Shown here: positions 58,086 through 64,000 of the stretch, piece by piece
Position numbering within the stretch: position 1 is the first letter of the stretch
Layout of the letters: every line of letters begins with the position of its first letter
NCBI RefSeq assembly: GCF_001427025.1
Contig: NZ_LMGA01000001.1
Coordinates: forward strand, 2,903,715 to 2,967,714
DNA length: 64,000 bases
Reading direction: 5' to 3'
DNA from: Mesorhizobium sp. Root554
Lineage (GTDB): Bacteria; Pseudomonadota; Alphaproteobacteria; Rhizobiales; Rhizobiaceae
Notes under the pieces: model-generated
Told to the model about the DNA's origin: nothing
What the model saw: the letters and a program-made list of their open reading frames with translations, nothing else
The model's database searches: none
Made by a program: the position numbers and the translations under genes

Positions 58086-58161
58086 GGGGCCATAGCTCAG
58101 CTGGGAGAGCGCCTGCATGGCATGCAGGAGGTCAGCGGTTCGATCCCGCTTGGCTCCACCA
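58086..58161 (+). tRNA. tRNA-Ala (anticodon GGC)
   Basis: A 76-nt cloverleaf: acceptor GGGGCCA/TGGCTCC with one G-T pair, D-arm AGCTCAGCTGGGAGAGC, anticodon stem CCTGC/GCAGG with loop ATGGCAT (anticodon GGC), T-arm with GGTTCGATCC and an encoded CCA at 58159-58161. Located 176 bp downstream of the TIGR02300 gene. I found no repeat of its 3' end further right in the window that would mark an integrated element. Confidence 0.97.
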
Positions 58162-58439
58162 AATCGTTCTTCCTGAATTGCAATTCTTGGATTCCTGGAG
58201 TGTCCTCGGCATATCCGGAGCTGGTCCTTCGATCTGTTGGCCGGTTCAGGCAATCCAACGTGGCGATGCCGCCGGCTCAACCCAGTCTCTTTAAAGCATC
58301 CAGAGATGCAGCCCACGAGATATTCCTCGGTCGATGGGATCGATTTCTATCCCGTTCATCCGCCTGCCCGGCAAGGAAATCGCTCGGCGTCGCCGATCTG
58401 TAGCCGCAAGTCTGGTGGGTACCAACACAAAAAATGAAT

Positions 58440-58459
58440 TGCACGCCTGTGCAAAAATG
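58440..58459 (+). repeat. Operator-like palindrome copy 1
   Basis: TGCACGCCTGTGCAAAAATG; the core is TTGCAC-gcct-GTGCAA, a perfect palindrome with a four-base centre. Identical at 18 of 20 positions to 58617-58636, 177 bp downstream. Probably a regulator binding site. Confidence 0.55.
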
Positions 58460-58616
58460 CCCTGCCCAGCACTTGTCAGGCGAAGAAATTGCCATCTCCG
58501 CCGCAAGCGGCCCAGAAAGACAAGGGGTTGATTTTTCACAAGAAAGACAAGTTAATGCCAAGAGTGAACGCCCCTCATCCGGGTATGAGTCATGTTCAGA
58601 AAGCTATGCGCCTATA

Positions 58617-58636
58617 TGCACACCAGTGCAAAAATG
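58617..58636 (+). repeat. Operator-like palindrome copy 2
   Basis: TGCACACCAGTGCAAAAATG; core TGCAC-acca-GTGCA. It lies just upstream of TTGACT at 58650, a possible -35 element, and about 155 bp before the leader ORF. The centre of four bases is shorter than that of NtrC sites, which need a longer gap between half-sites. Confidence 0.55.
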
Positions 58637-58772
58637 TCGCAAAGTTGGGTTGACTTTTGTCGACGGCACGGCGACAAAAATAAAAACCGTACTTCACGTG
58701 CGGTGCGGGCCGCGGGAGGTTGGCTCGGCAGGCGGGTGGCAGTAGCCGGCCTGCAAGCGTCAGGGAGGAACA

Positions 58773-58841
58773 ATGACGCCCGGATTTTGTCTTCGTTTGT
58801 CCGCGGTCCGGCAATCCGGACCGATCATGGCTTCGGCATGA
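58773..58841 (+). CDS. Possible 22-residue leader peptide coupled to the permease
   Basis: ATG at 58773 follows GGGAGG (58763-58768) and reads 22 codons (MTPGFCLRLSAVRQSGPIMASA) to a TGA at 58839-58841, which overlaps the ATG of the permease (58838) as ATGA. The permease ATG has no ribosome-binding site of its own, so this small ORF probably carries the initiating ribosomes to it by coupling. A hairpin (58804-58823) lies inside the ORF. No similarity to known leader peptides was recognised. Alternatively the permease could start further down, at 58868. Confidence 0.5.
   Translation: MTPGFCLRLSAVRQSGPIMASA
58804..58823 (+). promoter_or_regulatory. Hairpin inside the leader ORF
   Basis: CGGTCCGG (58804-58811) pairs perfectly with CCGGACCG (58816-58823) around the loop CAAT. 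It ends 14 bases before the permease ATG, where it could hide the initiation region unless a ribosome translating the leader opens it. No T run follows, so it is not a terminator. Confidence 0.5.
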
Positions 58842-60718
58842 CTCTTTCGAAGGCCGAACCGTCGCCAATGCGCCGCCGCGAAGCGCATCATCATGCGGTG
58901 TCGCGCCCGGACGCACGGGTCGCGCCGAGCCGCTGGCAGCGTTTGCGCTACAAGCTGCGGATCGCCATGCGCGAGCCCACGACCCTGATCGGCGTGCTGG
59001 CGGCGCTGCTGTTTGCCTATCTGATCGTCGTGCCGATCATCTCCATGCTGCTCGACGCCATCCGGGTGCAGCTGGGCGATGGCCGGCGCATCAAGGCGGA
59101 AACGGGTGAACTCACCTGGTACTATCTGGAGCGGACCTTCACCTCGCGCGTGGCGCGAAGCCTGTTCTGGGAGCCGCTCGCCAACACGCTCTCGGTCGCC
59201 TTTGGCGCCATCGTGCTGTCGGTCATTGTCGGCGGCATCCTGGCATGGCTTTTGGCGCGCACCGACATGTTCGGGCGCAAATGGTTCGCCACGGCGCTCA
59301 TCGTTCCTTACATGCTGCCCGCCTGGACCTTCGCGCTCGCCTGGACGACCCTGTTCAAGAACCGCACCGTCGGCGGCCAGGTCGGCTGGTTCGAGGCTCT
59401 CGGCTTTTCGCCGCCCGACTGGCTTTCCTACGGCCGCCTGCCGGTGACGCTGATCCTGGCGCTCCACTATGCGCCCTTCATCATCCTCCTGTTCGGCAAT
59501 GCGCTGCGCCGCTTCGATTCCCAGCTCGAGGACTCGGCGCGGATCCTCGGCGCCGGCCGCGTCACCGTCACTCGCAAGATCATCCTGCCGCTGATGCTGC
59601 CCTCGCTGCTGTCGGCCATCGTGTTGATCTTCGCCAAATGCCTCGGCGAGTTCGGCGTGCCCTATGTGCTCGGCCTGCCGGTCAATTTCGACGTGCTGGC
59701 GACGTCGCTTTACCGCAACATCTCCTCGCGCCAGACCGGCGTCGCCGCCGTGCTCGCCGGCTGCATCATGCTGATCGGCATCATCACGATCGTCATCGAC
59801 GCCAAGCTCATCAAGGAAGCGCGCCGCTTCGTCACCATCGGCTCGAAGGGTTCCATGGACCGTCTGCAGCCGCTCGGCGCCATGCGCATTCCAGCAATGG
59901 CCTTCGCGGCGGGCATCTTCCTGGTCAGCGTCGGCCTGCCGCTGCTCACACTGTTCCTGTCGACCGTCATGAAGGTGCCTGCGCGGTTCACCCTGGACAA
60001 TTTCACCCTCGACTACTGGATCGGCACGGATCTGAACACGGTCGCCCTGCAGACCGGCATCCTGCTCAGCCCCGACCTTTGGAACGCCGCCTGGAACAGC
60101 CTGCGTATCGTCGGCCTGGCATCGGTCACGTCCGGCCTGCTCGGCCTGCTGGTCGGCTACGTCGTCGCCCGCACGCCGGTGCGCCCGCTGGCAACCTTCC
60201 TCCGCCAGGTGACGTTCCTTCCTTATCTGGTGCCCGGCATCGCCTTCGCCGCCGCCTATCTGTCGCTCTTCGCCGTGCCGCGCGGACCGATACCGGCGCT
60301 CTACGGCACCACCCTCATCCTCATGCTGGCGCTGATTGCGGATCAGATGCCTTACGCTTCCCGCGCCGGCATCTCGGCCATGATGCAGCTTGGCAAGGAA
60401 CCCGAGGAGGCGGCGCAGGTCGCCGGCGCCGGCTGGTTCCGCCGCATGCGCTCGATCGTCGTGCCGATCCAGAAAGGCTCGCTGGTCACCGGCATCCTGC
60501 TGCCCTTCATTTCCGGCATCAAGGGGCTGAGCCTGTTCGTCGTGCTGGCCGTTCCCTCGACCGACGTGCTGACCACCTACTCGCTGCGGCTTGTGGATTA
60601 CCACTACACGCAGGCGGCCAATGCGGTCGTGCTGATCATCGCCGCGATCGCCTATTTCGGCACGCTGCTCGGCCAGAAACTCACCAGAACGAATCTCGCC
60701 CAGGGATTAGGGGGCTGA
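58838..60718 (+). CDS. ABC importer permease, two fused halves (FbpB/iron-type)
   Basis: A 626-residue inner-membrane protein with about 12 helices made of two BPD_transp_1 halves. Each half has its EAA-type coupling loop: EDSARILGAGRVTVTRKIILPLMLPS in the first and EEAAQVAGAGWFRRMRSIVVPIQKGS in the second (positions about 240-265 and 520-545; quoted as loop landmarks). This is the layout of ferric-iron (FbpB), thiamine (ThiP) and related importers. The N-terminal 40 residues are basic and His-containing. Start at 58838 by coupling to the leader ORF. One base separates it from the ATPase gene. Confidence 0.9.
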   Translation: MTLSKAEPSPMRRREAHHHAVSRPDARVAPSRWQRLRYKLRIAMREPTTLIGVLAALLFAYLIVVPIISMLLDAIRVQLGDGRRIKAETGELTWYYLERTFTSRVARSLFWEPLANTLSVAFGAIVLSVIVGGILAWLLARTDMFGRKWFATALIVPYMLPAWTFALAWTTLFKNRTVGGQVGWFEALGFSPPDWLSYGRLPVTLILALHYAPFIILLFGNALRRFDSQLEDSARILGAGRVTVTRKIILPLMLPSLLSAIVLIFAKCLGEFGVPYVLGLPVNFDVLATSLYRNISSRQTGVAAVLAGCIMLIGIITIVIDAKLIKEARRFVTIGSKGSMDRLQPLGAMRIPAMAFAAGIFLVSVGLPLLTLFLSTVMKVPARFTLDNFTLDYWIGTDLNTVALQTGILLSPDLWNAAWNSLRIVGLASVTSGLLGLLVGYVVARTPVRPLATFLRQVTFLPYLVPGIAFAAAYLSLFAVPRGPIPALYGTTLILMLALIADQMPYASRAGISAMMQLGKEPEEAAQVAGAGWFRRMRSIVVPIQKGSLVTGILLPFISGIKGLSLFVVLAVPSTDVLTTYSLRLVDYHYTQAANAVVLIIAAIAYFGTLLGQKLTRTNLAQGLGG

Positions 60719-60719
60719 C

Positions 60720-61847
60720 ATGCCAAGAATAAACCTTCGCGGCGTCGACAAGAGCTATGGCTCCAATTCAGCCAATGCCGTCGCCAACCTCAATCTCGAA
60801 ATCGGCGACGGCGAGTTCATGTGCCTGCTCGGCCCGTCCGGTTGCGGCAAGACAACGACGCTGCGCATGATCGCCGGGCTGGAGCATCTCAGCGACGGCG
60901 AAATCCAGGTCGGATCGCGGATCGTGGATTCGGTCGGGCAGGGCATTTTCATTCCGCCTGAGAAAAGGCAGATGGGCCTCGTCTTCCAGAGCTATGCGCT
61001 GTGGCCGCATCTGACCATCGAGCGCAACACCGATTTCGGCCTGCGCCTGCGCAACATGCCGAAGGCCGAGCGCGAACAGCGCGTCAGCGACGTCATGAAG
61101 ACGCTGGGGATCGAGCAGTATCGCGACCGCTATCCGTCGCAATTGTCGGGCGGCCAGCAGCAGCGCGTCGCGCTGGCGCGCATGCTGGCGGTCAATCCGG
61201 AGGTCCTGCTGCTGGACGAGCCGCTCTCCAACCTCGACGCGGCCCTGCGGCTGGAAATGCGCGCCGAGCTGAAGCGGCTCCACAACGAGTTCAAGACCAC
61301 CATCGTATTCGTCACCCACGACCAGTGGGAGGCGATGACGCTTGCCACGACCATCGCGGTGATGAGTGAAGGCCACCTCCAGCAGGTCGGAACGCCGAAC
61401 GACATCTACGACCGGCCGGCCAACCGTTTCGTCGCGCAGTTCGTCGGCAATCCGCCGATCAACATCGTCGAACTGGCTGGCAAATCGACCTTGAGCCGGA
61501 TGGCCAGCGACTACTTCACCGCCCGCTATCCCAACCTCTCCAACGTCGGTTCGATGGGAATTCGTCCGGAATCGCTGCGCATTGCAGGACCCGACGCGCC
61601 GGTTCCGCAAGGCGCTTTCACCGGGAACGCGGAGGTGACGGGCATCCTGCCCACCGGCGGCAGCTGGATCGTCGAGCTGACCCTGCCGGGCGAAAAGCTG
61701 TTCATGGCGACGCACCAGTCACCGGAGATGAGCTTGGGCGACCGTATCGAATTCTTCGTCAAGGCGAAGGCGCTTCACGTCTTCGACCGGCAGGGCAACC
61801 GGCTGGCGGAAGCGGACAGGGCGCTGTCGGCTTCGGAAGTTCATTGA
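60720..61847 (+). CDS. ABC importer ATP-binding protein (PotA/FbpC-like)
   Basis: A 375-residue ATPase with Walker A GPSGCGKTT (about residues 38-46), Q-loop LVFQSYALWPHL, signature LSGGQQQRVALARML, Walker B VLLLDEPLSNLD and H-loop VTHDQWEA, then a C-terminal TOBE/OB-type regulatory domain (about 250-375) as in the polyamine, iron and maltose group. It energises the fused permease encoded one base upstream. The first of two binding-protein genes follows after 22 bp. Confidence 0.94.
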   Translation: MPRINLRGVDKSYGSNSANAVANLNLEIGDGEFMCLLGPSGCGKTTTLRMIAGLEHLSDGEIQVGSRIVDSVGQGIFIPPEKRQMGLVFQSYALWPHLTIERNTDFGLRLRNMPKAEREQRVSDVMKTLGIEQYRDRYPSQLSGGQQQRVALARMLAVNPEVLLLDEPLSNLDAALRLEMRAELKRLHNEFKTTIVFVTHDQWEAMTLATTIAVMSEGHLQQVGTPNDIYDRPANRFVAQFVGNPPINIVELAGKSTLSRMASDYFTARYPNLSNVGSMGIRPESLRIAGPDAPVPQGAFTGNAEVTGILPTGGSWIVELTLPGEKLFMATHQSPEMSLGDRIEFFVKAKALHVFDRQGNRLAEADRALSASEVH

Positions 61848-61869
61848 GACATTGGGGGGAAACGACATC

Positions 61870-62991
61870 ATGAAGCCATTGAAGAAGCAGCTCGCAGGAT
61901 TTGCCGCGGTCGGCGCAATCACATTCGCCTTTGTGGCGGGCGCATCGGCGCAGGAAAAATTCGATCTCGACGCGCTGGTTGCCGCCGCCAAGGGCGAGGC
62001 TCCGATCACCGTCTATGCGGTGACCGGCAAGATCGTCGATACGGCGAAGGCGTTCACGGAAAAGTACGGCGTGCAGGCGACCGGCAAGAAGGTCAACGAG
62101 GCGACGCAGGCCGATCTCATGATCCGCGAAAGCCAGTCGGGCAAGGTCATCGGCGATGTCAGCCTCGCCATGGATGTCGGCTCGGCCATGGCGCAGCTGC
62201 TCCCCGAGGGGATCGTCGAAAGCTGGGTGCCCGGCGATATCGAGCCCGATATCGCCGACGCATCCCGCAATCCGCTGGTGGTCGTCTCGGACCCGCAGGT
62301 GTGGACCTACAACACCGAAAAATACAAATCCTGCCCGGTGAAGAACATCTGGGAGCTGACCGAGCCCAGATGGAAGGGCAAGGTCGCCATGCTCGACCTG
62401 TTCGAGAAGCCGCTCTACGCCGATTGGTTCAACCAGCTCGAGACGCATCACGACGCCGAGATCGCCAAAGCCTATGAGGACCTCTACGGCAAGAAGCTGG
62501 AGACCGACCAGCCGAGCGCGACCGCCGCATGGGTCAAGGCCTATGCAGGGAACGCGCCGCTTCTGGCCGACTCGACCGCCGTGGCCGATGCCGCCGGCGC
62601 ACCCGGCCAGGCCGAGCCCTTCATGGCGATAACGGCGACGGCGAAATACCGCGAGAACGTCACCGGCGGGCTGAAGCTTGGCATCTGCGAGGGCATCGAA
62701 CCTTTCGTCGGGTTTTCGTATCCCGGCTTCGGTCTCATCGCCAAGGGCACCAAGAGCCCCAATGCCGCGAAGCTGTTCATCCACTATTTGCTGACCGAAG
62801 AGGGCATCGCCAACCAGACCGTCGACGGCAAGCTGCCCAGCAACGGCAAGATCGCGCTGCCCGCCGACGAGCCGTCCGGTATCGCCAAGCACCGCGACAG
62901 CCTGATGCTTTTCGACTCGTCCACTGCGGCCGACGATTTCGACAAGCGTCAGGATTGGCAGGACTTCTGGCGCGTCAACTACAAGAAATGA
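61870..62991 (+). CDS. ABC importer substrate-binding protein, first paralogue
   Basis: A 373-residue periplasmic protein of the extracellular solute-binding family found with FbpB-type permeases. A signal peptide covers about residues 1-27 (cut near ASAQE). Landmarks: VYAVTGKIVDTAKAFTEKYG, SCPVKNIWELTEPRWKGK and NAAKLFIHYLLTEEGIA. Only four cysteine-region features and no classical FbpA tyrosine pair were recognised, so the ligand (metal, phosphonate, polyamine or other) is open. A closely related copy follows after 55 bp. Confidence 0.9.
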   Translation: MKPLKKQLAGFAAVGAITFAFVAGASAQEKFDLDALVAAAKGEAPITVYAVTGKIVDTAKAFTEKYGVQATGKKVNEATQADLMIRESQSGKVIGDVSLAMDVGSAMAQLLPEGIVESWVPGDIEPDIADASRNPLVVVSDPQVWTYNTEKYKSCPVKNIWELTEPRWKGKVAMLDLFEKPLYADWFNQLETHHDAEIAKAYEDLYGKKLETDQPSATAAWVKAYAGNAPLLADSTAVADAAGAPGQAEPFMAITATAKYRENVTGGLKLGICEGIEPFVGFSYPGFGLIAKGTKSPNAAKLFIHYLLTEEGIANQTVDGKLPSNGKIALPADEPSGIAKHRDSLMLFDSSTAADDFDKRQDWQDFWRVNYKK

Positions 62992-63046: not shown

Positions 63047-64000
63047 ATGGTATTGGAAGGCATGGCAAGGACCTGGAAATCGATTCTGCTCGCCGGTTCG
63101 GCGGCGGCGCTTGCCGCCCTGTCGCTTCCGGCGCATGCGGACACGTTCGATATCGACGCGCTGATCGAGGCGGCCAGGAAGGAACCGCCGGTTTCGGTCT
63201 ACTCGACCACCGGCAAGATCGTCGAGCAGGCCAAGGCGTTCACGGCGAAGTATGGCGTTCAGGCAACCGGCACCAAGGCCAATGCCGCCGCGCAGCTGGA
63301 AATGGTCGTGCGCGAAGCGCAGGCCAAGAACGTCCAGGCGGACGTACTGCAGATCAGCGACGTCGCCGCCGGCGTCGCGCAGCTGGTGCCGGAAGGCTAT
63401 GTCGAGAGCTGGGTGCCACCGGATCTGGCCGACAAGATCGACCCGATCTACCAGAACCCGCTGGTCATCTCCAACGAGGCGAACGTCTGGGCCTACAACA
63501 CCCAGACCTATGACAGCTGCCCCATCAAGAACATCTGGGAACTGACCGAGCCGAAGTGGAAGGGCAAGGTCGCCCTGCAGGATCCGCTCGGCAAGGCGTC
63601 CTATGTCGACTGGTTCAACCAGATGTCCATGCATGCCGACGACAAGGTGGCCGCCGCCTACAAGGAGCAGTACGGCAAGGATTTGGAAACCGATGAGGAG
63701 AATGCGACCTCCGCCTGGGTCAAGGCGCTCGCCGCCAACGGCCCGCTGCTGACGGATGCGGACGAAGCCGCCGCCCAGGCAGCCGGCGCCCCGGACCAGA
63801 AGGAGCCCTTCATGGGCATGATGAGTTCGGCCAAGTTCCGCGACAATCAGGAAGCCGGCACCAAGCTTGGCCTGTGCACCGGACTGAAGCCTTTTGCCGG
63901 CTGGATGTATCCGAGCCTCGGCTTCATCGCCAAGGGAACCGACAGCCCGAACGCGGCGAAGCTCTTCATCCACTATCTGCTGACCGAAGAGGGCATCGCG
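63047..64000 (+). CDS. ABC importer substrate-binding protein, second paralogue (truncated by window end)
   Basis: 318 codons are visible from ATG 63047 (GGGAGG six bases upstream); the stop is beyond the window. A signal peptide ends near AHADT. It is a tandem paralogue of the preceding protein, with matching landmarks VYSTTGKIVEQAKAFTAKYG, SCPIKNIWELTEPKWKGK and NAAKLFIHYLLTEEGIA, but many differences elsewhere, so the duplication is old. It may bind a related but different ligand for the same permease. Confidence 0.9.
   Translation, partial: MVLEGMARTWKSILLAGSAAALAALSLPAHADTFDIDALIEAARKEPPVSVYSTTGKIVEQAKAFTAKYGVQATGTKANAAAQLEMVVREAQAKNVQADVLQISDVAAGVAQLVPEGYVESWVPPDLADKIDPIYQNPLVISNEANVWAYNTQTYDSCPIKNIWELTEPKWKGKVALQDPLGKASYVDWFNQMSMHADDKVAAAYKEQYGKDLETDEENATSAWVKALAANGPLLTDADEAAAQAAGAPDQKEPFMGMMSSAKFRDNQEAGTKLGLCTGLKPFAGWMYPSLGFIAKGTDSPNAAKLFIHYLLTEEGIA

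Follow-up and report, generated by a model that had tools for sequence, protein, structure and literature searches.

Positions 58,773–58,841 of the window (the whole stretch of 64,000 nucleotides analysed) most probably form a short upstream ORF (uORF) that acts through translational coupling by delivering ribosomes to the gene that follows, a fused ABC permease, and it is the start with its Shine-Dalgarno (SD) sequence and the stop position that appear to be kept, not the peptide or the hairpin. According to this model, ribosomes would load at the strong SD of the leader, translate 22 codons of no fixed sequence and terminate at the TGA overlapping the permease ATG, upon which the same ribosome, or a subunit of it, would restart at the permease ATG, for which no good independent site is seen. 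Translation of the leader, and the dependence of the permease on it, are inferred.

The preliminary description had read here a 22-codon ORF with a strong SD, joined by an ATGA overlap to a permease start (58838) without a proper ribosome-binding site, and this description is confirmed. Translated from the ATG at 58773, the leader gives MTPGFCLRLSAVRQSGPIMASA and stops at the TGA occupying 58839–58841, and its GGGAGGA element ends 3 nt 5' of the ATG. The leader ATG has an anti-SD duplex energy of −10.9 kcal/mol versus −1.5 kcal/mol for the permease ATG, and none of the 11 listed in-frame starts of the permease (to approximately residue 46) is better than −5.1 kcal/mol.

Orthologous loci were collected by searches at E 1e-200, in which 9 of 397 genomes matched at the level of the order, 21 of 136 in the family to which genome G382 belongs and 28 of 394 in the window's own family; in the class search only the window's genome matched among 385, and within the genus (146 genomes) a close ortholog is found only in the window's genome and in one other (G011). 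The scan of genome contigs covered the best 80 of 131 loci. The 135 loci combined were reduced to 96 non-redundant ones by dropping 39 whose first 300 core residues shared >98.5% identity with those of a locus already kept. Every ATG or GTG located 330 to 20 nt 5' of a conserved permease codon was then called and its SD scored, a strict leader being defined as an out-of-frame ORF of 8–60 codons, with an SD of −8 or better, whose stop overlaps an in-frame ATG or GTG by 4 or 1 nt. The paralogous fused permeases (L004–L031) were left out as a control because many of them have the C-terminal end of another gene in the scanned region.

The features of the locus are collected in Table 1. The permease (626 aa) does not attain the curated cut-off for any of the 25 NCBIfam families listed (of 26), and its assignment as the 2-aminoethylphosphonate permease PhnU2 (TIGR03262) was rejected, the score being 137.4 bits for a cut-off of 593.25 bits; in some plasmid records the orthologs are labelled 'iron ABC transporter permease'. 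An ATPase follows the permease in 96 of 96 loci and a solute-binding protein is recognisable downstream in 95, the exception (L101) being a short contig. We have also considered that the leader could be what is left of a solute-binding gene once present upstream, and rejected it, as in 95 of 96 loci neither solute-binding protein has an upstream match (the sole match, in L095, lies on the other strand), a test which is weak because a remnant of about 20 residues could not attain the cut-off. A plasmid DNA search with the region returned no match.

Table 1. Features of the leader, its upstream DNA and the transporter operon in the window.
Feature	Positions	Strand	Basis
Palindrome TGCACGCCTGTGCA, operator-like, outer copy	58440..58453		
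Palindrome TGCACACCAGTGCA, operator-like, inner copy; same letters in L032	58617..58630		
Promoter-like block (GGGTTGACTTT ... CGACAAA), mostly retained in L032	58647..58678	+	inference
Extra upstream GGAGG	58715..58719	+	shuffle comparison
Shine-Dalgarno GGGAGGA of the leader ORF	58763..58769	+	−10.9 kcal/mol
Putative leader (delivery) mini-ORF, 22 codons plus TGA	58773..58841	+	direct reading, SD energy, comparison
Perfect hairpin, 8 bp, loop CAAT; absent from the relatives examined	58804..58823	+	direct computation, ortholog comparison
ATGA start/stop overlap, leader TGA with permease ATG (58838–58840)	58838..58841	+	direct reading
Fused ABC permease with two BPD_transp_1 stretches; putative coupled partner 3' of the leader and first of the operon's long genes	58838..60718	+	
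ABC ATPase	60720..61847	+	
Solute-binding protein (SBP_bac_11), open frame, exact start approximate	61852..62991	+	
Second solute-binding protein, continues past the window end	63047..64000	+	

The anatomy of the window recurs among the orthologs, and does so in a clustered manner. A strict leader is present in 31 of the 96 loci, with 13 to 59 codons (59 resulting from a 5'-extended choice in L162), whereas shuffled upstream DNA gave a mean of 1.4 of 96 and a maximum of 4 in 40 rounds. Crude gene calls were also made on the window and on 20 pieces, each of 20 kb, of its genome; with the locus itself removed, a strict leader precedes the operon-first gene in 6 of 141 cases, one of which (L112) resembles by eye the end of a real gene; three of the six, in L125 near 635 (−, position counted from the other end), L126 near 4055 (+) and L124 near 11197 (+), may be background. 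Within the ortholog regions themselves, coupling is seen for 30 of the 59 off-frame ORFs whose SD is −9 or better, but for only 22 of the 182 whose SD is above −5 (odds ratio 7.5, Fisher p 3.5e-9); these counts and P values, like all those on recurrence, ignore the relatedness of the loci. The SD classes between −9 and −5, outside the Fisher test, couple in 1/17 and 5/45, and weak-SD ORFs between −5 and −3 do so fairly often (11/52). If the junction is loosened to −20 to +12 nt and TTG is accepted as a start, the proportions become 52/69 versus 53/228, and 49 of the 96 loci have a leader. When mapped on the permease tree by a quick method, the leader label requires 8 changes versus a shuffled mean of 26.3, evidencing a clustered trait, and the starred branches force at least 4 changes; a clade of seven loci (L066, L134, L135, L086, L147, L091 and L093; support 94, not starred) has the leader in all of them. 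The chance rate is itself raised by permeases beginning with ATGA (Met-Ser/Thr), as these supply an overlapping TGA in one frame. On the whole, we take the leader architecture to be commoner than chance.

An alternative is that the permease is started independently, either at 58838 or at another in-frame codon, the leader being fortuitous. The coupling of weak-SD off-frame ORFs noted above and the direct start used by many orthologs would be in agreement with this, but the enrichment against three controls and the weakness of all listed in-frame starts in the window make it unlikely. Of the 31 leader loci, 26 have a permease start whose energy is weaker than −7 kcal/mol, and 8 also have an in-frame ATG or GTG with an SD of −8 or better, this being the coupled start itself in 5 and another start in L035, L163 and L066.

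The strict leader is absent in 65 of the 96 loci. In the Rhizobium/Agrobacterium/Ensifer clade none of the 23 loci has it and most have a direct SD-start, which indicates that the family can do without the uORF. Five of six Ensifer-type loci examined have an SD-led ORF of 59–61 codons with an overlap of 13 or 17 nt at the permease start; its frame varies among them, and the permeases have a fair SD of their own. In the sixth (L059) the upstream ORF, lying some 273 nt before the anchor codon, is fused to the permease through a net 1-nt length difference from L061, which gives a 673-codon open frame.

The 8-bp hairpin which the preliminary description had placed inside the leader is present, with arms at 58804–58811 and 58816–58823, and taken alone it is mildly unusual: dinucleotide shuffling of the leader (4000 versions) yields a perfect stem of at least 8 bp in 1.0%, and 8 of the window's 927 tiles of 69 nt contain one. 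The stability of the 141-nt region surrounding it is not unusual (z −0.17). As a conserved element the hairpin was rejected, since among the 31 leader loci the 8-bp stem occurs in the window only; the longest perfect stem is 4 bp in the nearest ortholog (L032), and the maximum among the 30 other leader loci is 7 bp, in L162 only. A regulated leader, in which the hairpin blocks the permease start and leader ribosomes open it, is thus an improbable reading despite a rival 7-bp pairing (58780–58786 with 58813–58819) that would compete with the hairpin: besides being private to the window, the hairpin ends 14 nt 5' of the permease ATG, where there is no SD to hide. Also, junction folding (−45 to +25) has a z of −1.7 in the window and a mean of about −0.2 across the 31 leader loci; two of these are strongly folded, L132 (z −4.2) and L068 (z −2.9), so that structure may matter in single cases. 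Of the translational control previously proposed, the comparison supports the coupled leader, whose SD, start codon, overlapping stop and range of lengths are found again in relatives, and does not support a role of the hairpin, which is not shared; the opening of the hairpin by ribosomes to free the permease start is left unsupported because the hairpin is private to the window and does not cover that start. The comparison of ATG, stop position and hairpin among relatives, which had been proposed as a check, gave recurrence of the first two and not of the third. The window's private hairpin may tune its own leader; judging from the orthologs, it is not part of a general device.

Returning to ribosome delivery by the leader, the comparison of peptides, frames and stop codons is informative. 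The nearest ortholog (L032, Mesorhizobium composti), whose permease is 92% identical, retains a 22-codon leader and the ATGA; it carries GGGAGGAACAATGACGCCC and GGCATGAC, and the body of its leader differs from that of the window, identical bases amounting to 13, 11 and 15 of 23 at codon positions 1, 2 and 3. In the Aminobacter group, SD, ATG and GTGA are found in 15 of 15 loci (10 different leaders) with 31–35 codons, the leaders being alike in the first few codons only. Their pooled pN/pS is 0.87; only pairs below 0.6 in pS and below 0.5 in pN entered it, and 5 of the 15 loci duplicate the leader of another. The synonymous/non-synonymous pattern, whose randomness the preliminary description would have held against the leader, is therefore near random in this group, which speaks against a functional peptide and does not count against coupling. 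Across clades, 2 of 437 pairs of leader peptides are alike at p 0.01 versus shuffled peptides, 4.4 being expected, and the codon-position G+C of the leaders is flat (0.665/0.614/0.645 over 705 codons; permeases 0.599/0.467/0.837). No constraint on the peptide is thus observed. Attenuator leaders of the trpL type have a cluster of sensing codons, a conserved peptide and competing hairpins with a terminator; we found neither such a codon cluster nor a conserved peptide, the hairpin is absent in relatives and, by reading, no T run lies 3' of 58823. That the peptide has a function or acts as a sensor (as an attenuator or arrest peptide), to which the M-x-x-P beginning of most Aminobacter-group leaders and the 6 Cys among 31 residues of the L033 leader could point, is very hard to reconcile with chance-level likeness across clades, flat codon-position G+C, the pN/pS obtained and the lack of any single-residue run in the window's leader.

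The frame is not fixed either. L132 (TAATG) and L141 (ATGA) reach the same endpoint in different frames, as do L065 (ATGA), L169 (TAATG) and L173 (ATGAGTAA), the last one missing the strict definition. With the peptide free and frames differing among close relatives, it is the stop position, not the peptide, that seems to be kept. In L039 and L074 the permease stands directly on an SD-ATG closely resembling the leader start of the window (GGGAGGAA-AATGACGC), as if direct and leader arrangements were interchangeable. Together, the variation in peptide, frame and stop codon and the resemblance of direct starts to leader starts favour selection on ribosome delivery.

Further upstream, both palindromes of the window have the form TGCAC-N4-GTGCA. 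The more general TGCAC-N2-5-GTGCA is found in 47 of 96 upstream regions versus 0 of 288 control tiles within permease genes, and in 29 of 31 leader loci versus 18 of 65 others; the palindrome pair is probably the operator of some regulator. In an Agrobacterium locus with a direct start (L041) a divergent gene of 328 aa, recognised by eye as LacI-type-like, lies upstream at 1468–2454 (−), and 329-aa minus-strand ORFs occupy a similar place in several related loci. The operon may be under two regulatory regimes. An extra GGAGG 5' of the leader SD occurs in 18 of 31 leader loci, 6.2 being expected from shuffles, and in some of them it lies, by eye, beside or within a G+C-rich inverted repeat. A tRNA-Ala (GGC) is located at 58086–58161, upstream of the transporter operon. 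Among RNA families, Rfam gave for 58300–59300 two sub-threshold matches only, SMAD5-AS1_1 (10.6 of 45 bits) and gntR-DTE (RF02989), the latter being rejected at 24 bits for a gathering cut-off of 63.6; eight relatives had no Rfam match, and likewise none to gntR-DTE at E 1.

Bicistronic design cassettes are synthetic and usually have a second SD inside the first cistron. The leader shares with them a short first cistron that is led by an SD and stops where the target gene begins, but the second SD is missing in the window, in line with the energy of the permease start. Natural counterparts are described in the literature. Shell et al. (2015; PMC4633059) report that RTGA-coupled small ORFs are enriched in mycobacteria and that sometimes only placement and coupling are conserved, with one example lacking conservation of primary sequence. 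The window's leader (22 aa, ATGA) falls within the 5–50 aa ending in RTGA of that set and, as there, the overlap with the downstream gene is retained while the peptide diverges. However, the mycobacterial ORFs are on leaderless transcripts, and the mini-ORF here is alphaproteobacterial, has a strong SD and is preceded at about 100 nt by the promoter-like block, two features that would argue against leaderless initiation; moreover, we have traced 31 orthologous loci of one operon, with overlaps of 4 or 1 nt and longer ones in further loci. RTGA-coupled small ORFs are therefore already known from mycobacteria, and what is new is an SD-led, widely retained case. The idea of a 'delivery' uORF, a short upstream ORF merely bringing the ribosome to a coupled gene, was proposed by Brown and Wade (2025; PMC12548453) from profiling data, to which comparative evidence at one locus is added here. 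Termination-reinitiation at overlaps of the ATGA/TGATG type was studied by Huber et al. (2019; PMC6728339), who found strict coupling in 13 of the 14 gene pairs tested; the upstream partners in those pairs are ordinary genes, unlike the present mini-ORF. A study of the small proteome of Sinorhizobium meliloti (PMC10117765) lists eleven novel sORFs in 5'-UTRs, and the term 'translational coupl' does not occur in it; in Bordetella, the cruR uORF (PMC9426467) is too distant from the next gene for coupling. No paper on the transporter operon itself was among the matches listed, in a search covering few subscription journals.

These results bear on gene annotation, as annotated permease starts can rest on coupling to a leader omitted from gene tables; the Devosia neptuniae record, for instance, puts the permease at an ATGA, and a 21-codon SD-led leader 5' of it is absent from the gene table, itself incomplete. 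An architecture kept while peptide, frame and stop codon vary offers a natural series on whether the position of termination alone is selected. We give even chances to the broader proposition that, in several alphaproteobacterial genera, the main translation signal of this transporter operon would reside on a sequence-free delivery mini-ORF, of which only the SD-start and the place of the stop would be selected, so strongly that the permease start stays the endpoint when relatives switch frame and stop codon.
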